From a virus, in IMG/VR virus record IMGVR_UViG_3300008116_000465, positions 1-32,047 of that record: DNA of 32,047 nt; one strand, 5' to 3'. The notes under the pieces are model-generated. The model had not been told where the DNA came from. It saw only the letters and a list, made by a program, of their open reading frames with translations, and did not search any database. The position numbers and the translations under genes were made by a program. This document shows, piece after piece, positions 2,915 to 31,100 of the stretch. Each line of letters begins with the position of its first letter. Position 1 is the first letter of the stretch.

Positions 2915-3265
2915 ATGGATAAGCCAATAAGCATGTCCGTTAAGGACTATTTGATCAGGACGCTAGCTGTTAAGATGCTCACAAGTGAGAAGACAATTGA
3001 GGCTGTTGTCAACCATCAGTTCCAATCCGCTAACGAGGCCCTTGACACCAACCACAGTGTAGAGATATCTGGGTTTGGTAAGTTCCTCTTTAACAACAAA
3101 AAGGCCATTAAGAAACTAGAAGCCCTACACGCTAAGGTGATAGCAATGGAAAGAATACTGGCTGATGACACAATTACAGAGCAGAGAAGAAATGCTGCTA
3201 CAGTGACATTAGCTAACACACACATAGCAATCAATCAACTAAAACCAAAGCTCAGATATGATTGA
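2915..3265 (+). CDS. HU/IHF family DNA-binding protein
   Basis: The 116-residue product has the HU/IHF pattern: an N-terminal helical part (SVKDYLIRTLAVKML, then KTIEAVVNHQFQSANEAL) followed by VEISGFGKFLFNNKKA, where the SGFGKF turn (residues 52-57) matches the V-x-l-x-GFGxF signature at the start of the HU beta-arm. After that it diverges: instead of a canonical beta-arm there is a long helix (residues about 60-105), so the DNA-bending arm is short or missing. IHF-like subunits are a known conserved feature of crAss-like phages. The probable role is bending or organising DNA in replication or packaging. It ends with TGA, overlapping the next gene by 8 bases. Confidence 0.8.
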   Translation: MDKPISMSVKDYLIRTLAVKMLTSEKTIEAVVNHQFQSANEALDTNHSVEISGFGKFLFNNKKAIKKLEALHAKVIAMERILADDTITEQRRNAATVTLANTHIAINQLKPKLRYD

Positions 3266-9017: not shown

Positions 9018-9548
9018 ATGTTAGATAGGCTGATTGACGTTGTGTTACAATTTGGCTCAGACGTACTCCCTGGTATTATTATTAGGGATTACGAGGAGGC
9101 TGTACTTCTAAGATTTGGTAAATTTAAAAAGGTGTTGAAACCTGGGTTCCACCCAAAGATACCATTTGTAGATGAGGTGATTGACCAACATGTCGTTGTT
9201 ACAACATTAAGCCTTCCAGCACAATCTTTGTATACCAGTGATAGACAGAATATTGTTGTCAAGGGGGTAATCAAATACAAGATATCAGATGTAAAAACAT
9301 TCCTGTTAGAAGTATTTGATGCCCAAGATGCAATAGCTGACATGTCACAAAGTGTCATAAAAAACGTAATCATGTCTATGTCTCTGGAAGAATGTACGGA
9401 TGCAGAACTTGATAACACATTAACTAAGAAGGTGAGGGTTGAAGCTAGGAAATGGGGTGTTGAGATTCAACAAGTTACGCTCACTGACCTAGCCCCAATC
9501 AAGAGCTTTAGATTAATAAATGACACAATTACAAACAATCTTGATTAG
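9018..9548 (+). CDS. SPFH (band 7 / stomatin-prohibitin) domain protein
   Basis: 176 residues, 2 bases after the portal stop. The sequence GIIIRDYEEAVLLRFGKFKK then VLKPGFHPKIPFVDEVID is the start of the SPFH domain; YTSDRQNIVVKGVIKYKISD and the later RVEARKWGVEIQQVTLTDLA are its conserved strands and helix. The usual N-terminal membrane hairpin is reduced to a weakly hydrophobic stretch, and the long C-terminal coiled coil of cellular relatives is absent, leaving nearly the bare domain. SPFH proteins form ring or cage oligomers on membranes. Placed between portal and scaffold, it may act in head assembly at the membrane or as a virion protein; its function is not known. Ends with TAG. Confidence 0.87.
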   Translation: MLDRLIDVVLQFGSDVLPGIIIRDYEEAVLLRFGKFKKVLKPGFHPKIPFVDEVIDQHVVVTTLSLPAQSLYTSDRQNIVVKGVIKYKISDVKTFLLEVFDAQDAIADMSQSVIKNVIMSMSLEECTDAELDNTLTKKVRVEARKWGVEIQQVTLTDLAPIKSFRLINDTITNNLD

Positions 9549-10966: not shown

Positions 10967-12520
10967 ATGGCAATTCAAACAATTCCAGGTTTAACTGGCT
11001 TTACGTATGCTCGTGTTGCTTCTATGGACAAGCGTGCAGTAGGTAAGTTGACAGATGCAAACCACTTGGAGAGTTTTCACTCGACTGAGCCAGCAGATTA
11101 TGATAAGAAGATTATCAGTTTGTACACTCAGAGTTCTCTTTACAGTAACGATTTCTTGGATATGATTAACAAGAGCACTCCTTACTATATCGATAACAAC
11201 AGTGATGCTTGGAAGTGGCAAGTACAAGTTCCTTACAAATTCCCTAAAATCATTGATATTCCTGATAGCACTCTAGCTCTAGATAAGCCAGGTATCGATG
11301 GTCAAGAGTTTTCTCTTGTAATTGACACTAATGAGTTCTCTAAGAATGCAATTGTTTCTGTAGGTACTCGTCAGTATGGTCCTCGTTTCTACGTGATCAA
11401 AGATCCTATTCCTTGGAATATGGGCTTTTTGTACACCTTCACTCTTGTGACTGACAACCCTCAAGTAGATTACGTAAGTTCTACTTTCTTACAGACTGGT
11501 ATTGAACTTGAATTAGTTGATGCTGCTATCGGTGAATTCGATCAAGACTTATTAGGTCTTCCTCGTTTAGGTGAGCAAATCACTATGTTTGAATCTTTAG
11601 GTTCTGCATATGGTTATGAGCACAAGATCACTGAGTGGGCTGATGACAAAATGATGCGTGATGCTTCTGGTAAGCCTCTTGACATCTTAGTATATGCTCC
11701 ACAAAGACGTAACCAATTACCTTTAACTCGTAACGATGTTAAATGGGAACCATTTATTGAGTTCTGGATGCGTAAGTCTATGTTAGAATTAAAAGTTAAG
11801 CGTATGATCTGGGCTAAGCCTGGTACCGTGAAGACTAATGGTTCTAAGCAAGAATTAAAGCGTACATCTGCTGGTGTATACCACAGAATGCGTAATAACG
11901 GTAACTTAGTACAATACAACCGTGGTGAGTTCACTGCAAACTTGATTCGTTCAGTGTTTGGTGACTTATTCTACAGACGTGTTGATGTTAAGGATCGTAG
12001 AGTTAAAATGTACACTAACGAAGCTGGTTTCGATGTGTTCCAACAAGCTCTTAAAAATGATGCACTTAATTCTGGTTTAACTTTCATGGCTGATTCTGGT
12101 AATCGCTACATGCAAGGAGAAGGTCAACACATCACTTACAACTTTGCATTCGATGCAATGGTTACACGTGAAACAGGTCGTGTTGAACTAATTCACTTAA
12201 AAGAATTAGACCTTCCGCAAACTAACTTAGAATTCGGTCAGAACAAAAAATCTACTCCTGTATTCATGGTGTTTGATGTATCTCCAATGAGCGATGGTTC
12301 AATGGTAAACAACATCCGTGAAGTACGTATGAAGGGTGCTCCTTCAATGACTTGGGGTTATATCGATGGAACTCGTCACCACTTAGGTTTTGCTAAGTCT
12401 CAAGGTATGAGTTCTGCGAACAAATTCCCTGGTTATGAGATTTGGATGAAAGACCGTTGTGATGTATTCATTGAAGATTTATCACGTACAGTATTAATCG
12501 AAGAAATACCACAATTCTAA
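10967..12520 (+). CDS. major capsid protein (HK97-type fold expected)
   Basis: 517 residues, the usual size for crAss-like capsid proteins, following the scaffold gene. Codons are biased toward CGT, GGT and GCT, unlike the AGA-rich neighbours, and the leader is A-rich (TAACAAAATGGC); both suit very high expression. A strong RNA hairpin follows the stop. The protein starts MAIQTIPGLTGFTYARVAS, contains the segments SLYSNDFLDMINKSTPYYID, YGPRFYVIKDPIPWNMGF and WEPFIEFWMRKSMLELKVKR, and ends with EDLSRTVLIEEIPQF. No N-terminal scaffold-like delta domain or protease gene is visible. The N-terminal peptide P7-G-L-T-G-F-T-Y-A-R-V-A18 recurs almost unchanged in the giant protein at 28110. Confidence 0.88.
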   Translation: MAIQTIPGLTGFTYARVASMDKRAVGKLTDANHLESFHSTEPADYDKKIISLYTQSSLYSNDFLDMINKSTPYYIDNNSDAWKWQVQVPYKFPKIIDIPDSTLALDKPGIDGQEFSLVIDTNEFSKNAIVSVGTRQYGPRFYVIKDPIPWNMGFLYTFTLVTDNPQVDYVSSTFLQTGIELELVDAAIGEFDQDLLGLPRLGEQITMFESLGSAYGYEHKITEWADDKMMRDASGKPLDILVYAPQRRNQLPLTRNDVKWEPFIEFWMRKSMLELKVKRMIWAKPGTVKTNGSKQELKRTSAGVYHRMRNNGNLVQYNRGEFTANLIRSVFGDLFYRRVDVKDRRVKMYTNEAGFDVFQQALKNDALNSGLTFMADSGNRYMQGEGQHITYNFAFDAMVTRETGRVELIHLKELDLPQTNLEFGQNKKSTPVFMVFDVSPMSDGSMVNNIREVRMKGAPSMTWGYIDGTRHHLGFAKSQGMSSANKFPGYEIWMKDRCDVFIEDLSRTVLIEEIPQF

Positions 12521-14405: not shown

Positions 14406-15548
14406 ATGGCTGATTTTTCATTAACTACGCTCTTCGTAGTACCAGTAGGAAACACTCTACCTAGTCCTGGTACTTCTACGCAAAACTTGACCGCAGGTCA
14501 GTTTGGCATCTTTAGAAGCGATTACTCTGTAGCTACTGCAGGTAACATTGCTGCTAAACCGTATTTCTATTTGGCTCAAGGTAGAGTTAACACTTATTTA
14601 CAAGGTTCTAAGCGTTCTGATAAGATTGCTTCTGCCCAAGTTAGTGAGTGGTATAAAGTGGTTGGTAACCCAGTGGCTGCTAACCAAGTAACTCAAGTTG
14701 GTAACTTCAACGTTAAAGCTGGTGATGTTGTAACATTCACATTACGTGCTCATTCTTCTTACATTGACACATTGTATTTCAACGGTTTCACCCGTTCTAT
14801 TACAGTTGTTGCTCCTTGTTTAGAGTGTGGTGGCGATCCATGTGCAGATGTTGATGTTCCTGCTTTCATTGATCAAGCTATCTTAAAGTTTGAACAAGAA
14901 GCTCCAGGTAACAACCCTGACAACATTAGCTTCAACACTTTCTATCAATTCCAAAGAGTTGGTAACGATCAGAACGCTAAGTTAGTTATCTCTGGTAAAC
15001 CATTAACTAAGTATGGTCAACCATGTGATGTTGCTGCATTCCCTTGGGAATACGATCGTATGTACTTCCGTACTTTCGTATACAGTGGACCAGCTACAAC
15101 TGCTGACTTCATCGTTGCTGACAATTGTAACATCGTTGCTGAGGCTGTAGTTACTCAACGTGCTTCTTATGTATCTGGTACTTCAGATGAGATCAAGCAA
15201 TTAGAGAAAAACTTCTATAGCTACCAAGCTGGTTACCTTAAGCATTTGTACAGAATGGTTGGTTACAACGAGAACTTTGAGTCTTGGGTAACTGATGGTA
15301 CTACTTATGACACTTATTACATTAAGTTCAATGAGTATGACAAATCTGCTTACAAGTGGGGTGATTACATCATCGAAGATAGCACTGTAATCCTTGCTAT
15401 TCCTAGTGGTGCAACTGCTGCAATCGAGGCAATCTTAGTTGCTGGTTTAGGTCCTGTTACTGATGATAGCGGTCCTATCACAAGTACTACTTCTACTACA
15501 ACTACTGTTTGGCCTAGTACTTCAACAACAACTACTTTGATTCCTTAA
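14406..15548 (+). CDS. abundant structural protein with Thr-rich C-terminus (380 aa)
   Basis: Its leader (AAACAAAATGGC) matches the capsid gene leader, its codons show the same CGT/GGT/GCT bias, and a strong terminator follows. All this points to a second highly expressed virion protein, such as a capsid decoration, head fibre or tail protein. The protein is beta-rich and Cys-poor apart from CLECGGDPCADVD (about residues 138-150). Segments such as VYSGPATTADFIVADNCNIV and FYSYQAGYLKHLYRMVGYNE are distinctive, but I cannot name the family. The last about 25 residues are a Thr/Ser run interrupted by VWPS and ending TTTTLIP, like the ends of other proteins in this window. This tail is probably exposed and flexible. 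Confidence 0.78.
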   Translation: MADFSLTTLFVVPVGNTLPSPGTSTQNLTAGQFGIFRSDYSVATAGNIAAKPYFYLAQGRVNTYLQGSKRSDKIASAQVSEWYKVVGNPVAANQVTQVGNFNVKAGDVVTFTLRAHSSYIDTLYFNGFTRSITVVAPCLECGGDPCADVDVPAFIDQAILKFEQEAPGNNPDNISFNTFYQFQRVGNDQNAKLVISGKPLTKYGQPCDVAAFPWEYDRMYFRTFVYSGPATTADFIVADNCNIVAEAVVTQRASYVSGTSDEIKQLEKNFYSYQAGYLKHLYRMVGYNENFESWVTDGTTYDTYYIKFNEYDKSAYKWGDYIIEDSTVILAIPSGATAAIEAILVAGLGPVTDDSGPITSTTSTTTTVWPSTSTTTTLIP

Positions 15549-16577: not shown

Positions 16578-17690
16578 ATGTCTTGTACAAATTGTTATAA
16601 CGGTTGTGTAGAGATTGTTTCTGATAAATGTGTTAGATATACAGGAGACCCTATTCCTTCCTTAGGAATAGATACTGGTGATAACCTTCTTGTTGTAGAG
16701 CAAGCTCTTATTAATAAAGTGATTAGTTTTCTAGATGGAACAGGAATTTCTATTACTATAGATCCAGATGATTATTGTAATCTAGTTACAAAATATCTTC
16801 CTCCTTGTTTTCCTGATTGTGGAAATCCTTCTGCTTTAGATTTATTTACAGCTTTAGTAAAAGCTGCGTGTGATTTACAGGTACAAGTTGATGCTGTAGA
16901 AGCTGATATTGCTGTATTGAACGCAAACTATGATGTAGATTGTCTTACAGGTGTAACAGCCTCTTCTGACACTCATGCTATTGTTCAAGCTGTTATTACA
17001 AAGCTTTGTGATTTAGGTGTAGACCTAGCTGCATTAGCTCTTGATTTAGATACTAACTATGTAAAGCTTTCTGATTTAAACACTTTAATTCAAGCTTACT
17101 TAGACAGTCTTGCTCCTACACAGAACTATACAAAGATGATTCCTTATACAGCTGTAGAATACTACGGTCCATTAAGTTACTTTGATATCACTGGAGCAGG
17201 TATTGCCGCTGATGGGTTTGACAAAATCTACCTATGTAATGGCTGAAATGGAACTCCTGATAAAAGAGGACGTGTTCCTGTAGGTGCTATTGTTGGTATG
17301 GGTGGTGGTGCTCTAGATGCTGCTGTTAATCCTATTAACATTGGTAATCCTAACTATGCTCTTGGAGATGGTGGTGGTGCTAACACTGTAATATTAAACA
17401 GCACACAAATCCCTGCACACTCACATCCTGTTACAGTTACTGACCCTGGTCACACTCATGCTCCTGGTAGCTCTATCTTTAGAGGTAACAGAACTACAGA
17501 TGACTCTGGTGGAACACAATGTGTTGCTACACAATTATCAAACCCAAATATACCAGTACTCACTGGTCCTCAGTATACAACAAGTTCCACTACAGGTATA
17601 AATGTAACTGTTGGTAATACAGGTGGTGGATTAGGTCATGCTAACATTCAGCCTGTACGTGCGTGCTACTATATCATGTACATTCCTTAA
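16578..17690 (+). CDS. tail-collar fibre protein, interrupted by an in-frame TGA at codon 223
   Basis: Codons 1-222 encode an N-terminal Cys-rich part (MSCTNCYNGCVEIVSDKCVR), acidic helices (LFTALVKAACDLQVQVDAVE) and the start of a phage tail-collar domain ending FDKIYLCNG. TGA stands at 17244-17246, and the same frame continues with NGTPDKRGRVPVGAIVGMGG, the next part of the same collar signature, then HSHPVTVTDPGHTH and a C-terminus typical of collar fibres (IQPVRACYYIMYIP). The TGA lies inside the conserved turn, where a Trp (TGG) would suit. Collar domains end short tail fibres that touch the host surface. Either the TGA is read through, or the fibre is truncated, or this is a sequence error. 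TGA ends other genes here, so general recoding is unlikely. Confidence 0.75.
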
Positions 17691-17709: not shown

Positions 17710-18042
17710 ATGGCTTGCGTACCTGGTACCCCTTGCTTTGAAAATACGGTAAATGCCTATTACCCTAAACCATGTGATAATGGTTGGGTTGTGGACACTT
17801 ACCCTATTCCAACATCATATAGTCAATATGATGGTCCCAATCTTCCTAATTCAGGAGTTAACAATAAAGATAACTTAAACGTTGTATTACAAAAGTTAGA
17901 TAATAAATTAAGTGCTTCAGAGATAGCTGATGCATTGTTTGCAGCTATTATAAATGATCCATCTGTGGCTGTAGCATTCTGTACACTTGTAAATCAATGT
18001 GTTAGTGCTCCTACAACTACAACAACAACTACAATCCCTTAA
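17710..18042 (+). CDS. small protein with Thr-run C-terminus (110 aa)
   Basis: Starts 19 bases after the collar gene. The N-terminus MACVPGTPCFENTVNAYYPK has two cysteines; then PYPIPTSY-like sequence and a helical part (NKDNLNVVLQKLDNKLSASE, IADALFAAIINDPSVAVAF), then CTLVNQCVSAP and a run of seven Thr ending in Ile-Pro and stop. The helical part resembles the acidic helices in the first half of the collar protein. The ending TTTTTTTIP is nearly the same as that of the 14406 protein (TTTTLIP). Family not recognised; probably an exposed tail or fibre accessory. Confidence 0.65.
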   Translation: MACVPGTPCFENTVNAYYPKPCDNGWVVDTYPIPTSYSQYDGPNLPNSGVNNKDNLNVVLQKLDNKLSASEIADALFAAIINDPSVAVAFCTLVNQCVSAPTTTTTTTIP

Positions 18043-18053
18043 TAAACCACAAT

Positions 18054-18590
18054 ATGACAGTATTAATTACATTAACAACAGCAGGTTCTTCAACAGGACC
18101 ATTCAGTCTATATTCAGATGCAAACTCATATTCTACACCATTTGAAACAGGTGTAGCAAAATCTAGTTTGTTGGCTGGATACACATCTACATTGGTTCCT
18201 AATGGAACAACAATCATTCGTGTTATGTCTACAGGAACCTGTACAAACTATACAGATATATCTGTAGTACCATGTACTACAACCACAACTACCACAGTTC
18301 CTCCAACCACAACCACAACCACCACATCTTCAAGCCCAGTGATGTATACAATTAATTCAGGAGCATCTGGTACTTCTGGTGAGGCTTGTGGTCAATCCCC
18401 AACAATATCAGTATGGGCTCAACCTGGATATACTGTACCATTTGTTACAATGTTTTTATATGATAGCCCAAGTTTAACAAATCCATTCATTGGTTCAACA
18501 GGTTGGCGAAAATTAATTGGACCATCAGGTACATATGCTGTTGAAATCACTACAGCTGGTGAGATTACAAATTATGTAACTTGCCCATAA
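18054..18590 (+). CDS. two-domain protein joined by Thr-Pro linker (178 aa)
   Basis: Residues 1 to about 73 form a beta-rich domain (MTVLITLTTAGSSTGPFSLY ... IIRVMSTGTCTNYTD). Then come two blocks of seven Thr separated by VPP, and then a second small beta domain with two Cys (NSGASGTSGEACGQSPTISV ... NYVTCP). The first domain is clearly related to the N-terminus of the 27244 protein (shared AG-x2-TGPF, then III-x2-STGxC). Such a design, domain plus Thr linker plus domain, suits a virion surface display protein. A terminator follows. Confidence 0.72.
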   Translation: MTVLITLTTAGSSTGPFSLYSDANSYSTPFETGVAKSSLLAGYTSTLVPNGTTIIRVMSTGTCTNYTDISVVPCTTTTTTTVPPTTTTTTTSSSPVMYTINSGASGTSGEACGQSPTISVWAQPGYTVPFVTMFLYDSPSLTNPFIGSTGWRKLIGPSGTYAVEITTAGEITNYVTCP

Positions 18591-18771: not shown

Positions 18772-20022
18772 ATGCCTGAAAATCAATCCTTGCTAGAACA
18801 GCTAGAAGAGATTCTACACTGGAAAAAGAGTAAAAAATTCTATGCTGATAAGCTTGGAATTACAGAGTTTGAGGTTGACGAGTTATTAAAAGAATTAAGA
18901 AATCAAGAGAAGAGTGAGGAAGATGCTGAGGTTGGAAATTACATTGCTGAACTAGAGAATGTAATAGTTAAGTTTACAGAGGACATTAGTAAGGGTGTTG
19001 GTGAGGTGGTAGCTAATTTTAGCGAAGAGGTTAAGAGCTTAGATGAACTAATTGAGAAGTGTCACATAGACACAGATAAATGGGAAATAACTAAATATGT
19101 ACAGAACTTCTGGGGGAATGGTGGAAATCCCCATTGGCAGGTTAAAGCCTGGCTAGCAAAGAAGTCTGCAGAGCAACTGTTTCAAGATAGCTTTGTGGAC
19201 TTTTTAGCTTCATATCAGCCTGTTAGTCAGGAAGTTATGAGTCCTAAGTTCACTCCAGAGAAGCCAAATGGTATGCTAGTTATTAACAAACAAGACTCTC
19301 ATTTAAACAAATGGGATGTAGATGGTAATAACAACATAGTAGATAGATTAGCTAACATTATGTATAAGGTGGAAGTGATTGCTGCACAAGCTCAACTTTC
19401 AAACAACCTAGAAGAAATCACATACATTATTGGCTCAGATGAGTTTAATAGTGAATACACCAATGCAACTACAAAAGGAACCCCTCAACAGAATACACAT
19501 ACATATCAAACTTCATTTGAGTATATATGTAACCATGAGGTGTTAATGATTACAATGTTATTACAATACGCTAAACATGTTAATGTGGTGTATGTAGCTG
19601 GTAATCATGATGAGTTTGTAGGATGGCATATGGTTAACTGGTTACAAACGTATTTTAGAAATACAGACAGACTTACAATTGACAGCTCTCCTAAATACAG
19701 AAAGTATGTAAGTTATGGCAATTCAGCATTGATGTTCAATCATGGGGATGCGATTAAGCCAGCTAAACTTGCAGGACTGTTCCCAATAGAATATAGAGAC
19801 CAATGGTCATTCCATAATAACTTCTATATATTCACAGGAGATAAGCACCATGAAGTGAGTCATGATTTTAACGGTATTAAATTTTACCAAATTCCAGCTT
19901 TCTCAAATGCTAAGAGCCTTTGGGATGATAAGAATGGTCACGTGATGTCTAAAGCTGAGGTGACAGCATTCCTAATCGATCAAGCTGAGGGAATGACAAA
20001 TATATTCAAACAGTATTTATAA
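18772..20022 (+). CDS. HTH-domain plus metallophosphoesterase protein (416 aa)
   Basis: The N-terminal part has a helix-turn-helix-like segment (KKFYADKLGITEFEVDELL, about residues 21-45) and an acidic coiled part. The C-terminal half is a calcineurin-like metallophosphoesterase with all five motifs: D175-S-H177, the GDxxx motif as G-S-D223-E-F-N, the G277-N-H-D-E281 signature, N-H324-G-D, and G-D-K-H359-H360. It should bind two metal ions and hydrolyse phosphoesters, such as nucleic acid ends or nucleotides. It is first in the tail operon and overlaps the next ATG by one base. Why a nuclease-like enzyme sits among tail genes is unclear; it could be a virion enzyme or act in packaging or DNA modification. 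Confidence 0.88.
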   Translation: MPENQSLLEQLEEILHWKKSKKFYADKLGITEFEVDELLKELRNQEKSEEDAEVGNYIAELENVIVKFTEDISKGVGEVVANFSEEVKSLDELIEKCHIDTDKWEITKYVQNFWGNGGNPHWQVKAWLAKKSAEQLFQDSFVDFLASYQPVSQEVMSPKFTPEKPNGMLVINKQDSHLNKWDVDGNNNIVDRLANIMYKVEVIAAQAQLSNNLEEITYIIGSDEFNSEYTNATTKGTPQQNTHTYQTSFEYICNHEVLMITMLLQYAKHVNVVYVAGNHDEFVGWHMVNWLQTYFRNTDRLTIDSSPKYRKYVSYGNSALMFNHGDAIKPAKLAGLFPIEYRDQWSFHNNFYIFTGDKHHEVSHDFNGIKFYQIPAFSNAKSLWDDKNGHVMSKAEVTAFLIDQAEGMTNIFKQYL

Positions 20023-20600
20023 TGGCAACTTTAAGGAAATTAGTTTCAGATGTGCGTGCAATGCACAAATTGTTATCAACAGATAACTTAATCACTGATA
20101 GAGTGGTTGCATCTGAGATTAAGAACAACACACTTTTATTAGTAAAACGTGAGACAAATCTCAGAAAGCTTTGGGCTACTGATACTTTGTTTACTACCAT
20201 TCCTTGTTTGGAATTGGTAGAAGTTCCTATTTCTGAATGTTGTGATTATGTGGATCCTTGTACGGTTGCTAGAACAAAATATGAACAATACTATTGGATT
20301 TCAAATGGTTATTTATATGTAAATAATCCTTTGTTACAAGCCATTAGAATTGCTGCTTTCTTTGAAGAAGATGTTCCTAATGAGATCATGTTTGCTGAGT
20401 GTTGCTGCAGTGATAATATTAATCTAGAAGAGTATTGTAAAAATCCTCTAGATAAAGAATATGGCTGCCCTGGTTATTTAGAAAAGCAAGTGCTAGAACT
20501 GACATCTCAAAAGCTGTTATCAACCTACTTCAGATTGAAGACAGATCAAACATCAGATGGGGTGGATGGTCAAGCACCAAACACAACCAATGCAAACTAA
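20022..20600 (+). CDS. probable neck or connector protein, Cys-rich (192 aa)
   Basis: Overlaps both neighbours by one base. The product opens with MATLRKLVSDVRAMHKLLST and NLITDRVVASEIKNNTLLLV, a helical start, has a Cys cluster in the middle (VPISECCDYVDPC, then ECCCSDNINLEEYC) and ends in the helix GYLEKQVLELTSQKLLSTYF with a disordered tail. This helix resembles the C-terminus of the 243-residue protein at 13647, suggesting a common ring-protein family. In crAss-like genomes a gene of this size lies just before the HU-like and gp4-like genes, as here. The exact structural role is inferred. Confidence 0.65.
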   Translation: MATLRKLVSDVRAMHKLLSTDNLITDRVVASEIKNNTLLLVKRETNLRKLWATDTLFTTIPCLELVEVPISECCDYVDPCTVARTKYEQYYWISNGYLYVNNPLLQAIRIAAFFEEDVPNEIMFAECCCSDNINLEEYCKNPLDKEYGCPGYLEKQVLELTSQKLLSTYFRLKTDQTSDGVDGQAPNTTNAN

Positions 20601-21081: not shown

Positions 21082-22005
21082 ATGTCATATTACTACAAGT
21101 ATAACTTCATCTCCCCTGAGCCTGTCTATGCGACTGTGAAAGAAGAGTTTAAAAGCTACTTCGATACAGGTGCTGTAGATGATTTGTTATTTCCTACATA
21201 CCTGGATAAGTGTCTTAGGAAACTAGGAAGGTCTTCTTATGTTATTAGCGAACAGCTTCTATATATTGAGGATTTTGAAGCTAGACTTCCTGACAACTTC
21301 TTTGCTGTAAGAGAAGCTTGGTTGTGTACATCAATCCCTGGCTATCCTTATCAAACAGCTAATTCATTCTATTCTCAAGCTGCTTCTCAAACAACAATAC
21401 AGGTGAGTCCTGTTATTTCTGGAGGAGCTCCTTGTACCAATCTAGAATGTACAACAGGTTGTCCTACGTGCATGCCTGAGCTTATTCAAGCTGTATACAA
21501 GACTAATCAACAAGTGGCTGTAGAATATCACAGACAATATTTATTAAAACCAGGTAACATATCTGTTAAAGCACATTGTGATCTACAGTGTGCAAACTTT
21601 GGTAGCTCTTCTGCAGATTCATTTGATATTAGAGATAACAAGTTTGTTACTAATTTTAGAAATGGTGTAGTTCACTTAGTGTTCTATTCTACAGCATATG
21701 ATGGAGTGGGTAATGAATTGATTCCAGATAACTATCGTATTAGAGAGTTTGTAGAAGCTTTCATCAAATACAAAATGATAGAAACGCTGACCAACCAAAC
21801 TAATGATGAAACATTTAACCAGCTTCAAACAAAGCTTGCATACTATAAACAACAAGCTGATGAAGCATTCATCATGGCTGATATTGAGGTGAAGAAGCAA
21901 GATTCTTGGGCTAAGCAAAGAAGAATCATCCAAGACTTAAACAGATTTAATAGATTCGAACTACCAAATAGAAGTTACAGATATGGCTGGAGAAGAAACA
22001 ACTAA
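21082..22005 (+). CDS. tail stabilisation protein, P22 gp4-like (probable)
   Basis: 307 residues. Position directly before the large tail hub matches the gene called P22 gp4-like tail stabilisation protein in crAss-like genomes. The start SYYYKYNFISPEPVYATVKE and DDLLFPTYLDKCLRKLGRSS are a helical head; the middle has a Cys cluster (CTNLECTTGCPTC); the C-terminal part is helical (RIREFVEAFIKYKMIETLTN, NQLQTKLAYYKQQADEAFIM, then IQDLNRFNRF). P22 gp4 closes the portal and joins it to the tail needle and hub. Overlaps the hub gene by 23 bases, tight coupling for two interacting proteins. Homology to gp4 is recalled from context, not tested. Confidence 0.62.
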   Translation: MSYYYKYNFISPEPVYATVKEEFKSYFDTGAVDDLLFPTYLDKCLRKLGRSSYVISEQLLYIEDFEARLPDNFFAVREAWLCTSIPGYPYQTANSFYSQAASQTTIQVSPVISGGAPCTNLECTTGCPTCMPELIQAVYKTNQQVAVEYHRQYLLKPGNISVKAHCDLQCANFGSSSADSFDIRDNKFVTNFRNGVVHLVFYSTAYDGVGNELIPDNYRIREFVEAFIKYKMIETLTNQTNDETFNQLQTKLAYYKQQADEAFIMADIEVKKQDSWAKQRRIIQDLNRFNRFELPNRSYRYGWRRNN

Positions 22006-25000
22006 TATTAAACAAGAGTATAACAATGCTACTTCTGGTTTGAATCTGGATCAATCTGTAAATCAGATTGAGAAAGGTAAGCTTACGTATGCATTGAATG
22101 CTAGTGTTGAGAACTTTGACTCAGATTCTGTTAACTATCAGAATGAGCCAGGTAATGAGTTATGTCTAGACTTTCCTACAGGCTATCATTTAATAGGAAC
22201 TCATTTCATTGGTGAACAAAACAAACATATATTCTTCTTAACTAATCCTGAAACAGGAGATAGCCAGATTGGATATATGGATAACAATGATTGTGTATAC
22301 CGTATATACGTAAGTGCTAAATGTTTAGGTTTTGATGTAAAATATCCTATCCTTAAAGCTGTTCATAAGATTACCAATTGCACTACAGAAGTGTATTGGA
22401 CAGATGGTCTTAATCCTAGAAGATACATAGATTTAAATAATATTCCATATAAGTTAGCTCCTACAGCTGATTTATGTGATCCTATTTATACTAATGAACT
22501 TGATTGTAATCAATTAAACGTTCAGCCTAATTTTAACATTCCTTCATTAGATGTAACTGATGTTACAAACGGTGGTGACCTCACTGCTGGTACATATCAG
22601 TTTGCCATTCAGTATTGTGATGCTGCTGGTAATCCCTACACATCTTTCTACTCTATTACCAATCCCACACCTATTGCTGATCCTCAAATTACCACATTAG
22701 ATTTTAACTATCAAGTGGGTAAATCTATTATAGTTAGTGTTGGTAATCTAGATACCACTGGACAATTCCAATATTTCAATCTTGCTGTAATTAAAACAGT
22801 GAACGGTATACCATCTGTGGAATTAGCTGGAACTTATTTTATAGAAGATAGCACTAGAAATATAACTTATACAGGACAGAATGTTACACAGATTCGTCTT
22901 ACTATTGATGATATATTTGAGAAATATCCATACTATGAGATAGCTCAAGACTTAACCACTGCTCAAGATATTCTTATCTGGGACAATCTTACCTCTGTAG
23001 ATAGAATTAACTATCAATCAATTGCAACGCAAATTGATCTTAAATGGGAAACTTATAGAATCCCTAGTACAGAAACCTATGCTGATGAACTGAACGCTAC
23101 AAACCTTAGAGGTTATCTAAGAGATGAGGTGTATGCATTTGAGATAGTTTTCTTGTTAAGTAGTGGTAAACAAACAGATGGTTTTCATATTCCTGGTAGA
23201 ATGATTACTGCTAACGAAGGTTCTCAACCAGATGTACCAAGCACTAATCCTGACTTTATTGGAGATGGTACAAGTGCACCTTATTGGAAGATTTACAATA
23301 CAGGTTCTGTAACAGGATTTTCTCCTGGATATTCACCAAGTCAATCTTACAAAGGACCTTATCAATACGGTGAGTTTGCTTATTGGGAATCAACTGAAAC
23401 CTATCCATGTAATGTAGATGTATGGGGTGATCTTGCTAGTCAACCAATTAGACATCATAAGTTTCCTGATGTTCTTATAAGTCCTATATTTGAAAGTCCT
23501 ACATATACACTAGGAGCAGGGTTTGCACCAGTGATGCAAAGTGATGCTGTATTCCCAATGGGTGTAAAGATTGATGTTCAACAAGTTGCATATTTGGTGT
23601 ACGCATCTAATCTTACACAGGCACAGAAAGAAAGCATCATAGGATTTAAAATTGTAAGAGGAGATAGAAATACAAACAAATCTATTGTAGCTAAGGGTAT
23701 TCTTAGAAACGTAGGTAAATATAAAAGAGAAGAAACAGAGTTCTACTTCCCTAACTATCCATATAACGATCTTAATAAGGATGAGTTCCTTCTTGATAAT
23801 AATAATGCATATCTTGATCAATGTATTACCTACAATGTAATAGCTACTACAACATGTATTATACAATACACTGATTGTTTTTCAAATACAACACAGATAG
23901 AAACATTAGTAGTTGGAACTACAAAAAAGATATGTTCTCTTAGCACTCCTTTGGTTATGAGTGGAACAGCTATAATCACTGTGGTTGTCTATAACACATA
24001 TAATCTTACTAGTGATTCAACAACTGTATTCCAATATCAAGATCCATTAACCACTGCATTTAACCAAATCACAGTGACAGGTAATGGATTACAACAAGTG
24101 AACTCATCAGTACTTCCTATATACTTATCTGGAACAACTAGTTATAGTATTACAACAGATGCAACAAAGAACTCACTTTGTTATCCTAATAAGTTAGATG
24201 CGTTTGCTACAGATGAGTCTAAATACAGAATGGTATTTAACTCACCTGAAACATCTTTTGGACAACCTTTCTTAGGATCTGTTCTTAAGCTTGAGAATGT
24301 TATGTTTGGTGCTGGTATAGCTCATTTTGTAGAGGTTAAGAGAAATGCTACATACAAACTTCTCACAGCAGAAGCTCAACAAGATGCCCTTAGATCTAGT
24401 GAAGTTATTGCTAATATAACAACACCATTCAGTGCTTCAGCAATGTTTGCTGCATATCAAGCCTATCTAACTATCTACATAAATGGAATCACTAGAAGAA
24501 ATTATGGTTATTCATTTAACTCAATAGCTAGTTATGATTACAGTGGAGCTATTGATAACAATCTAGGTATCAAACAAAGACAACTAGATAAGTATCAATA
24601 CGTTATACCAGGTGTACAATCTGTAAGTGACTTACATGATCTTAACAACTTTAACAGAGAATCATCTGTATATCTAAAGACTATTGACACTAGAGATGGT
24701 TCATCAGTGATACCTTTACCATTCCCTAATCAGACTCCTAGTCTTTTAGTTGGTGGTGTAAGTGGTATCTCTGATACATCAAGATTCACTATATCACAGA
24801 AGAATAACTGTTCTGTACCTGGTAAGAATGAAGCAATCAATGTAGTTTCTTACTATGGATCATTAAAGAACATCTTTGTTAATCAGTGGGGGCAAATCTA
24901 TTCTTACAATACAATTGACACAGGATTTCAAGAAAGCATTGATATTAACAATATGATGTTTTCTACACCTAGATCAGCCACTATATTTGGCGGTGATACA

Positions 25001-27232
25001 TTTATTAGTAAGTTTGCATTTAAAACTAAGCTTCCATTCTTTTTTGATGATAGAGTGAATGCTCCTGATGATAGTGATATATTCTATGATGAGATTGGTA
25101 ATGTGGCTTATCCACAATACTGGCACTCAGCTAGATCTGTGTTAAGTGATTTTACATTAACTACGGGTGAGGTGTTAAAGAACATGATTTCTTATAAGGC
25201 ACACAATTTTGATTGTCCTAATAACCAAGATCCTGCACCTCAATCAGCAACAAATCCTCCTGTAGTAAATCCTAACAGAACATTCTACGATGGTAAGATG
25301 TATATGTTTGCTTACGGTATTCCTTCTTTCTATTGTGAATCTTCTATAAATGTAGACTTACGTCAAGCATTTAATAGTTTAGAAGGTGACTTCTACCCAC
25401 ACGTGAGCTCAGGTATTCCTGATAACTGGTTACAAGAGTCTGTGGTTCCTATTGCTTTTGATAATACATATTATTATAATGTAACGTTTTCAAAGCAAAA
25501 TAAAGAGAATACATTTACTCACCTACCTGCAGATTGGGTTGAGGAACTTTGTTATACTAAGTATCCATTTAGAGCTGTCTATTCAGACCCTCAAGATGCA
25601 TATGCTGATAACAGGGTAAATAACTGGTTAAGTTATGGTGCTACATCATTCTTTGACTTCCCTCAAAACTTTGGTGATCTTGTATCATTAGATGGTATTC
25701 AGAATAAAGCTGTGTTAGCTAGATTTGAGAACAAGTCATTGTTATATAATACAATGCTTACAGTTCAAACTAGCAACCCACAAGCTGCTTATTTAGGTAA
25801 TGATACATTATTTAAGAGTGCTCCTCCAATTGACTTTGCTGAAACAGACCTTGGATATGTAGGAGCTCAGAATAAGTTCTTGTTAAAGATTCCTCAAGGA
25901 CAGATTACAGTGGATGCTAAAAGAGGACAGGTATTTTTAATTGCAGGTAATCAGGCTACTGACTTATCAGGGTTTGGTTCAGGACTTAATAAGTTCTTCA
26001 CAGACCATTTAGCATTTGAAATCTTACGTTACTATCCTGATGTAAACACAGATAACCATTATGATGGTATTGGCTTACATGGAGTGTTTGATAGTAAGTA
26101 TGACAGGGTGATTATATCTAAGTTAGATTACATCCCTAATAGCAAAAACATTAAATATGATGCTGTTAAGCAAGAGTTCTATATAGAAAAAACTCTAGGT
26201 GAGAGCGTAATAAGAACAGTGGTGAGTGTTTATGACTCAGAATACTTCTGTAATAAGTCATGGACTCTTTCATTTAGTATGAACACTAAGAGTTGGATTA
26301 GCTTCCATAGCTATATTCCTAACTTCTATATAGCAGAGAACAACTTCTTCTATTCTGGATTGAATGGTGGATGTGACTTAGAAGCAATTGCTTTCTCTGA
26401 GATTCCTTGTATAACCACTACAACAACATCAACAACAAAAGATTGTAGAATAATAGGTACAGCAGTTGATCTGTGTATAGACTGTACATTGATAGGAACA
26501 GCTTGTATAGATTGTACAATAATTGGTACGGCTTGTGTAGATTGTACAATAGTTGGTACAGCTGTAGAACAATGTCCAACTACTACCACTACAACATCTA
26601 GTAGTACAAGTACAACAACTACCACTACTACTGTAGAACCTACCACTACTACCACAACCACTACAGAACCAACAACCACCACAACTACTACCACTATATG
26701 TACTAGTAGACCTGAAGGATTGACAAATTATGAATACTTCTTTACATATACACCTTCAGAAGGGGCTGAGCCAATTAACTACTCTGCAACATTAGAAAGT
26801 GCTTGTGATGCTTGTAATTGGTTAAAAAATAATTATAATTGGGGTGAAGGAGCTTGGATTGGTCAAAGTTCTACATTCGGTGTTGGAAGTTATGTTTATT
26901 TTGGAACATTTACTAATTGTGATGTATTATATGATGGATTTTATATAACAAACCACGAAACTTGTGAAATAACACAAATAGTTGATGGGTATATTGTAGC
27001 TATTACAAATTGTACTATAACTCCAACTACCACCACAACAACAACTGTGGAACCAACTACCACTACTACAACAACATTAGCACCTGGACCCACTACTACA
27101 ACAACTACCAGTACAAGTACTAGCACAACAACCAGTACTTCTACTAGTACCACAACAACAACCACAACTTCTCCACCAGCACCAGATTGTACTCTAACTG
27201 ATGGAACAGCTGTAGAACAATGTCCTTCGTAA
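21983..27232 (+). CDS. tail hub / tail tube protein, P22 gp10-like, with Thr-run C-terminus
   Basis: 1749 residues, the largest complete gene. The N-terminus (YNNATSGLNLDQSVNQIEKG, KLTYALNASVENFDSDSV, NYQNEPGNELCLDFPTGYHL) is the opening I associate with crAss-like P22 gp10-type tail tube proteins; a beta-propeller-like body follows. After about residue 1470 the style changes: four Cys-rich units of about 10 residues (1487-1532), a Thr/Ser run (about 1531-1571), a small insert domain (SRPEGLTNYEYFFTYTPSEG ... GYIVAITNCTI), another long Thr/Ser run (about 1681-1732), and a final DCTLTDGTAVEQCPS. The C-terminal 280 residues are thus a string of linkers and small domains, probably exposed. The gp10-type C-terminal domain itself seems to be in the next gene. 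Confidence 0.75.
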   Translation: MAGEETTNIKQEYNNATSGLNLDQSVNQIEKGKLTYALNASVENFDSDSVNYQNEPGNELCLDFPTGYHLIGTHFIGEQNKHIFFLTNPETGDSQIGYMDNNDCVYRIYVSAKCLGFDVKYPILKAVHKITNCTTEVYWTDGLNPRRYIDLNNIPYKLAPTADLCDPIYTNELDCNQLNVQPNFNIPSLDVTDVTNGGDLTAGTYQFAIQYCDAAGNPYTSFYSITNPTPIADPQITTLDFNYQVGKSIIVSVGNLDTTGQFQYFNLAVIKTVNGIPSVELAGTYFIEDSTRNITYTGQNVTQIRLTIDDIFEKYPYYEIAQDLTTAQDILIWDNLTSVDRINYQSIATQIDLKWETYRIPSTETYADELNATNLRGYLRDEVYAFEIVFLLSSGKQTDGFHIPGRMITANEGSQPDVPSTNPDFIGDGTSAPYWKIYNTGSVTGFSPGYSPSQSYKGPYQYGEFAYWESTETYPCNVDVWGDLASQPIRHHKFPDVLISPIFESPTYTLGAGFAPVMQSDAVFPMGVKIDVQQVAYLVYASNLTQAQKESIIGFKIVRGDRNTNKSIVAKGILRNVGKYKREETEFYFPNYPYNDLNKDEFLLDNNNAYLDQCITYNVIATTTCIIQYTDCFSNTTQIETLVVGTTKKICSLSTPLVMSGTAIITVVVYNTYNLTSDSTTVFQYQDPLTTAFNQITVTGNGLQQVNSSVLPIYLSGTTSYSITTDATKNSLCYPNKLDAFATDESKYRMVFNSPETSFGQPFLGSVLKLENVMFGAGIAHFVEVKRNATYKLLTAEAQQDALRSSEVIANITTPFSASAMFAAYQAYLTIYINGITRRNYGYSFNSIASYDYSGAIDNNLGIKQRQLDKYQYVIPGVQSVSDLHDLNNFNRESSVYLKTIDTRDGSSVIPLPFPNQTPSLLVGGVSGISDTSRFTISQKNNCSVPGKNEAINVVSYYGSLKNIFVNQWGQIYSYNTIDTGFQESIDINNMMFSTPRSATIFGGDTFISKFAFKTKLPFFFDDRVNAPDDSDIFYDEIGNVAYPQYWHSARSVLSDFTLTTGEVLKNMISYKAHNFDCPNNQDPAPQSATNPPVVNPNRTFYDGKMYMFAYGIPSFYCESSINVDLRQAFNSLEGDFYPHVSSGIPDNWLQESVVPIAFDNTYYYNVTFSKQNKENTFTHLPADWVEELCYTKYPFRAVYSDPQDAYADNRVNNWLSYGATSFFDFPQNFGDLVSLDGIQNKAVLARFENKSLLYNTMLTVQTSNPQAAYLGNDTLFKSAPPIDFAETDLGYVGAQNKFLLKIPQGQITVDAKRGQVFLIAGNQATDLSGFGSGLNKFFTDHLAFEILRYYPDVNTDNHYDGIGLHGVFDSKYDRVIISKLDYIPNSKNIKYDAVKQEFYIEKTLGESVIRTVVSVYDSEYFCNKSWTLSFSMNTKSWISFHSYIPNFYIAENNFFYSGLNGGCDLEAIAFSEIPCITTTTTSTTKDCRIIGTAVDLCIDCTLIGTACIDCTIIGTACVDCTIVGTAVEQCPTTTTTTSSSTSTTTTTTTVEPTTTTTTTTEPTTTTTTTTICTSRPEGLTNYEYFFTYTPSEGAEPINYSATLESACDACNWLKNNYNWGEGAWIGQSSTFGVGSYVYFGTFTNCDVLYDGFYITNHETCEITQIVDGYIVAITNCTITPTTTTTTTVEPTTTTTTTLAPGPTTTTTTSTSTSTTTSTSTSTTTTTTTSPPAPDCTLTDGTAVEQCPS
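26441..26578 (+). repeat. four tandem Cys-rich repeats in the tail hub gene
   Basis: Units start at 26441, 26480, 26510 and 26540. The two central units are exactly 30 bases (DCTLIGTACI, DCTIIGTACV); the outer two carry a 3-residue addition (DCRIIGTAVDLCI, DCTIVGTAVEQCP). Each unit has two Cys. A fifth, divergent copy (DCTLTDGTAVEQCPS) forms the very end of the protein at 27184-27229. Confidence 0.85.
26575..26697 (+). repeat. Thr-codon (ACN) run, hub block 1
   Basis: About 40 codons of almost only Thr and Ser, written with mixed ACT, ACA and ACC, so not a simple microsatellite. Blocks of seven or eight Thr are separated by VEP and EP. The opposite strand gives spurious Val-rich frames. Confidence 0.9.
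27025..27177 (+). repeat. Thr-codon (ACN) run, hub block 2
   Basis: About 50 codons of Thr with Pro (VEP, LAPGP) and a Ser-Thr alternating part (STSTSTTTS). Same style as block 1 and as runs at the ends of the genes at 14406, 17710 and in the linker of 18054. Confidence 0.9.
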
Positions 27233-28110: not shown

Positions 28111-31100
28111 TGGCTAAAGGTATTAAATGCACATGTGGACATTCCTGGAATAAATCAGATTCCAGCAAGAAAGATATGTATGTTTGCCATATGTGTGGGA
28201 AAGATAACACCATGAAGGATGGTGGTTGGTTAGATAACTATGGTAAGAAGCCTAATCCTAATGAGGTGGATGTATCTGTAGGTCCTGGTTTTGTAGGAAT
28301 GGGTAATGATACAACAGGTAGAAACTATTCTCCTGCATGGGGTGGACAGTTTCAGAGTGGTGGTTTCTTACAACCTATTAGTTACAAACTACCTTCACGT
28401 TACAGAATTCCTTATGCTGAGCCTAGTACCGAACTAGCTACATCTATAGGAGGAGTAGACGGAGAACCAGCTTATTTAATACCTATGTTTAAAGGTGGTA
28501 AGGATTTAAAAGATCCTGTTGCTGAATATAGAAAGACAGGTGAACATCTTGGTGGTCCATTTAAAACATGGCAAGAGGCTGAAAAATGGGAACAAGAAAT
28601 TAGACATCCATATGTAGAAAAAGGAAAACCTATTCCTACACCACTTAAGAGATGGGGAGATATGGAAGATGGTGGATATGTAGCTCAGGTAGGTAAGTCT
28701 ATCCCTACAATGGCAGATAGTCTTGCTCTTTATAATAATTCTAAGAAAGTACTTGATTATTATAATGATAAAAGATATAAAAATTATAGTACTATAGATT
28801 ATAAAAAGAAAGAACATTATAAACGTTATAATAGAGAGGCACTAGCAGATTTCCTTAAATTAAACAAATCTAGTGGTATTTTAGTGCCTACAGACACAGG
28901 TAAAAAATATGAAATTAAGACTATCCCAGTAGATTCATATTACAAAAAACTTGATGCTAATAGATATCTTCAAAGAGAAACTAGAATTGGAGCATTAGAC
29001 ACAAAATCTCCAATGCAGCTATTTGATAATAGAATCACTCCTACAATGCAGTATTATTATGTAAATAGTAAAACAGACGATCCTTTATTTGCTGATAATG
29101 TTTCTATATATTCTTATGACCCTATATTAGTTAAACCTGTAAGTATGCTCACTTCTAAAGAAAGAGCTACTAGATTAAAAAGATATGGAAAAGAAAGTGG
29201 TTTAATTGATGAAAAGGTAGAACCGTCTACATCTACTGAGGAATCAAAAACTGAACTAGAAAAGAAAAAGACCCCAGTAATTAAAAAATCTGAAGAAACT
29301 AAACCAGCACCATATACTCCTACAGGAAGTAAGAAATACATATTAAATGGAATAGAGATTAGTGAAGAAGACTTCTTAGGTACAGGTAATACAACTGGTG
29401 GTAGTAAAAGAATTATATATAGTACACCAAAACTAAAAGAGCGTAAAGTTCTTCGTTTAGATGGAACTCCTGAAACAGACCCAGAGAAGATTCGTAAGGC
29501 TATGCGTGCACAGGAAAAGGATGGTGATATGGCTATGGGTGGAACAATGCAATATGGAGGTAGTAAATCAACTACTGACAGTGTTAGACATCAAGCTAAT
29601 AAGATATTACAATATGAACAATTAAGAGGTGGACCTGGCGGTGCTCCTTTACCATACTATAGTGATCCTAAGTATATGAATATGCTAATGGATAAAGTAT
29701 ATCCAGAAGTAAAAAAGATAATGCCTGGTGCAACTGCAATGGAAGCTGGTGAAGCTATGGACTTTATCTTTAATGCTGGATGGGATGAGAATAACAATAA
29801 AATAACTAAAGATCCTAGAGCATATGCTTTACAAGAATATTATAGACAATACGATCAATCTAAATTAGATGCTGATGGTAAATGGTCTGGTAGAAAGAAT
29901 GCACCATATTCATTTGATCAAGAATATGCTAGTACTATTGGTAAGCTTTCTGAAAACGAGAGAAGAACATTAATGAACAAAGGTAGAGATTGGTATTATA
30001 AAAATATAAACAATCCAGCCCCTGGAGTTCCTAATAGCAACTATAATGATACTTGGTATGGACGCATTTGGAATACTAATGATTATCTACCATTTGATCC
30101 TAAGAATCCAAAGTTTGTTCCTAAAAAAGCTATGGGTGGTAGCTTACCAGGTGCTGTAGGATTCACGTACGCACGTGTAGCTGGTAGTGCTCCTAGCAAT
30201 GGTAAGTATGCTAAGAAGACAAAAGCTTCTGCACAGAATGGTAAAGAGATGAAGTTCTACCAAGAAGGTTTAGATTTTAAACCTAACAGTATTGCTCAAG
30301 AGGGTGCTATTGTAGACCCAATGGGACAATGGGCACATCCAGGAGAAGTAACTATAATACCAGGAACAGACATAACAATGGAAGGGGTAGATTATCCCGT
30401 ACTAGGAATATCTGATACAGGGGACCAACAGATGATGTATCCTGGAGAAGACTATAACTTTGATGGTGAGTATGTTACAGAGTATCCAATGATGAAAGAG
30501 GGTGGTTGGTTAAGTAAGTATCAATCTGGAGGTCCTTTATCTAGATCTAATCTAGAAACAATGGCAGCTCTTGAAAAGGACATTAAGAATCAGAAAGCTA
30601 GAAATGCTCAAGAAACTGTTTCTCAATACACTCCAAAACCTGGAGACCAACAGAGAATGAATGCAGCTAAAGATGCATACAGAGCAGAACAAGCTAAACT
30701 ATTAAATAGAGCAGCTAGTTCTGAGGTGGCAGCTAAAGCTATGGAGAATATAGTAGAACCTATGTTAGTAATGGAAGGTGTGGCATCTGGCCTTAGTGGT
30801 GTACGTAGTCTAATGACTAAACCAAAATCTATTTCTCCTTCTTATGTTTCTCCTCCTTATGAGAAGTCAGGATTCAATCCACTTGGTTTAGTAGATGATA
30901 TAGCACCGAGAATAGATCCTATAAAAGCAATGGGTGTAGAGATGGATATAATGGACATGAGTCCTTTAAATCTTATACCTGGATACGGCAGAAAACTATC
31001 TGGTAAAAACCAGACGTTTAGAAAGTTTGGTAACTCTCTAGATGATGTTATACAAAGACAGGCATTAAGTCCTGCTGGTGGTTCTAAATTCAGAATGGGC

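Follow-up and report, generated by a model that had tools for sequence, protein, structure and literature searches.

Does the TGA that interrupts a tail-fibre gene in the window (the whole stretch of DNA analysed here, a virus record of 32,047 bases that is a fragment of a genome) regulate the length of the fibre, or does it have a more trivial origin? Translation of the forward frame 16578-17690 gives 222 amino acids, a TGA at 17244-17246, a further 147 amino acids and then a TAA, with FDKIYLCNG immediately before the stop and NGTPDKRGRVPVG following it, and the in-frame stop at codon 223 described in an earlier, sequence-only reading of this DNA is therefore present as described (Table 1). 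We conclude, with a probability of about 0.95, that this TGA is an isolated T>G change private to one contig, representing either an error in the consensus base or a private nonsense mutation, and that it serves no evolved function. On this account, a single metagenomic contig would carry TGA in place of an ancestral TTA (Leu) codon in an ordinary crAss-like tail-fibre gene.

Table 1. Coordinates of the interrupted tail-fibre gene and its parts in the window.
Feature	Position	Strand	Remarks
TGA within the frame, where the nearest relatives have TTA (Leu)	17244..17246	+	Differing base 17245 (T>G)
Tail-fibre gene, split at codon 223; undivided in the nearest relative (open frame of 370 aa)	16578..17690	+	
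N-terminal 222 aa; mostly helical (model of intact homologue)	16578..17243	+	Expected product, given a real and unsuppressed stop
C-terminal 147 aa, tail-fibre-like (phrog_8763, phrog_8469)	17247..17690	+	Lost if the stop is real

The genes surrounding the fibre gene place it among the crAss-like phages (Crassvirales). The window encodes a crAss-type major capsid protein (PF23898), a portal and a terminase, and it is these that form the genome neighbourhood of the fibre gene, as in other members of the group. The C-terminal half of the gene matches two crAss-like tail-fibre families, PHROG 8469 and PHROG 8763, and an intact homologue matches the same two (E values of 1e-14 and 7.7e-20, respectively) over a segment that spans the TGA site. 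The designation tail fibre is used here because of these PHROG matches, and collar-like because of the CNGxNGTPD motif. A Pfam search with the intact homologue returned no family at E values up to 1, the collar-domain model included. The family profile has a weak match to the long tail fibre of the solved structure 8kec (E = 0.0015), and a tblastn search of an annotated phage collection with the intact homologue gave no matches. The structure model of the intact homologue is of low confidence, above all in the C-terminal half (mean pLDDT 63, pTM 0.27). We also note that the products of 14406-15548, 17710-18042, 18054-18590 and 21983-27232, otherwise dissimilar proteins of the structural region, share threonine-rich runs, which often lie at the C-terminus or close to it (e.g. 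ending PTTTTTTTIP).

We next turned to the relatives of this gene. A search of IMG/VR using the part downstream of the stop as the query identified 80 loci, 79 of which cover codon 223, and in all 79 the frame is open through that codon, closing only at the end of the gene where the locus extends that far. Alignment of relatives at this position, a check proposed in the sequence-only reading, thus finds a sense codon in every case and the stop in none: the codon is TTA (Leu) in 35 of the 79 and AAC, CAG, TCA, AAT, GCT, CAA, TCT, CTA, TTG or GCA in the others, with neither a stop codon nor TGG (Trp) at any locus. Over approximately 1.2 kb, only two positions separate the window from L002 and three from L003, its two nearest relatives, and both of these have TTA; the TGA is therefore a single T>G step at position 17245 from a leucine codon. 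The two halves belong to one protein, as had been proposed, because the frame runs open across the site in every relative checked. The alternative of two separate proteins meeting at the TGA is ruled out by the same observation.

Two further comparisons bear on the residue itself. Pattern scans of IMG/VR, which may not include records from the genome of the window itself, gave no matches for CNG-x-NGTPD with TAA, TAG, TGA or TGG at x, and a control pattern with Leu (TTA or TTG) at x gave at least 119 stretches. Among 139 distinct sequences compared, the only TGA at this codon is the window's own and none has Trp. The proposal that Trp would fit the position is thus contradicted, with relatives carrying Leu, Asn, Gln, Ser or Ala and the nearest of them TTA, and the stop is also not at a conserved core position as had been supposed: in an alignment of 30 homologues residue 223 is the variable one within an otherwise invariant CNGxNGTPD. 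This variability argues against a special role for Trp there. Three related contigs, read from end to end, each contain a single copy of the motif, and we therefore see in them no second fibre copy that could stand in for a broken one.

Of the functional interpretations, programmed opal readthrough, in which a regulated leak at the TGA would yield a common short fibre and a rare long one, draws on the intact frame downstream of the stop, which still encodes the conserved domain, although an intact frame is equally expected if the change is very recent or an error. The stop is missing from all relatives, near-identical ones included, and the 84 nucleotides 3' of it fold no better than shuffled sequences (z = -0.41), leaving no sign over that interval of a downstream RNA structure that might stimulate readthrough; we regard this proposal of the sequence-only reading as very unlikely. 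A version confined to this strain, with a real stop read through by the host or by an undetected suppression so that both fibre lengths are made, is equally improbable. Decoding of TGA as Trp, by a suppressor tRNA or by recoding of late genes, has precedents in the group, since some crAss-like phages recode TGA to Trp, chiefly in late genes, and opal suppressor tRNAs are encoded by some (PMC7886860; PMC12386605); recoding has also been reported in crAss-like phages in which no suppressor tRNA could be detected. Phage Lera, a crAss-like phage with opal TGA-to-Trp recoding, resembles the window in that a late structural gene contains an in-frame TGA, but in Lera 41 ORFs contain a suppressed TGA, there are two suppressor tRNAs, and relatives have Trp at these sites (PMC12386605), whereas the window has one internal TGA, no tRNA gene that we could find, and Leu in the nearest relatives. 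More specifically, no tRNA genes were found in the window, itself a fragment, in its nearest relative (57.9 kb) or in two relatives of approximately 114 kb, and with no relative carrying the stop either, the suggestion of suppression by a phage tRNA is not supported. All 115 Trp codons summed over the listed frames of the window are TGG, and the fibre gene is the only listed gene with an internal stop, the terminase, portal and capsid frames being open with TGG for every Trp. Where relatives extend over the TGA terminators at 3265, 13650 and 16334, these codons are conserved, and TGA is thus a working stop in this genome, which agrees with the sequence-only reading that the genome as a whole is not recoded. 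With Trp at codon 223 in 0 of the 79 aligned loci and 0 of the 139 distinct sequences, we consider decoding as Trp to be highly improbable.

Hypervariation of the fibre gene by a diversity-generating retroelement (DGR) has in its favour that some Zeta crAss-like phages have such elements acting on their tail-fibre genes (PMC12386605) and that codon 223 specifies a variable residue across the family. We found no match to the reverse transcriptase family PF00078 in either the window or six related records, all seven of which may be fragments, and only two bases of the fibre gene differ between the window and L002. DGR mutagenesis is typically adenine-directed, and the change here, T>G on the coding strand, is not. 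The chance that a DGR is responsible is vanishingly small, and the related idea of a phase-variation-like switch finds no retroelement to drive it and no relative, among 79, in which the gene is broken at or before the site.

These readings together account for only a very small share of the probability, and the choice lies between an error and a private mutation, both of them options raised in the sequence-only reading and both consistent with a stop that is private to the window in a gene that is intact in all relatives. We favour a wrong consensus base arising in sequencing or assembly, which is probably somewhat better than an even bet, over a true nonsense mutation in the sampled phage population, which is rather less probable but still a substantial contender. 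Over the part that overlaps the nearest relative there are 25 substitutions, a count that leaves out one short pair of indels and 229 bp absent from the relative; sixteen are synonymous, eight change an amino acid and one is the nonsense change. A random single-base change in these genes creates a stop in approximately 5% of cases, such that about 1.3 nonsense changes are expected among 25 unselected changes, and the one observed is therefore unsurprising. Twenty-two of the 25 window alleles that differ from L002 recur in other relatives and look like natural strain variation. Each of the three private alleles (at 12217, 17245 and 20264) is a change to G, in two cases from T, and because HiSeq data have a reported bias towards G as the wrong substituting base (PMC4787001), an error is somewhat favoured, although three private sites are too few for an error signature and the sample may not be HiSeq. 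Illumina errors are linked most strongly to sites directly after 3-mers ending in GG (PMC4787001); base 17245 lies two positions past a GGC and not directly after it, and a sequence-specific error of this type gains little from the context. If the stop is real, translation would end after residue 222 and the 147-residue C-terminal domain would be lost, presumably with loss of function, and a successful lineage would seem unlikely to lose a fibre domain for which no second copy is seen. As either an error or a private mutation the TGA is of little importance, whereas conservation would have made it an instance of regulated fibre length. When one metagenomic contig shows a single in-frame stop, comparison with near-identical relatives should come before any proposal of readthrough or recoding.

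There are several other departures between the window and its nearest relative. The substitutions are clustered at window positions 19695-19746, 20248-20283 and 23413-23593, and most of the window alleles in these clusters recur in other relatives, a pattern matching what recombination between strains would give. At 30497-30506 a one-base insertion and a one-base deletion compensate each other within a few bases, and there is also a substitution. Lastly, the L002 record lacks 229 bp within gene 9018-9548, out of frame (window 9022-9250; about position 14252 in L084), which could be either a deletion or a misassembly in that record; the gene is whole in the window and in many other relatives.
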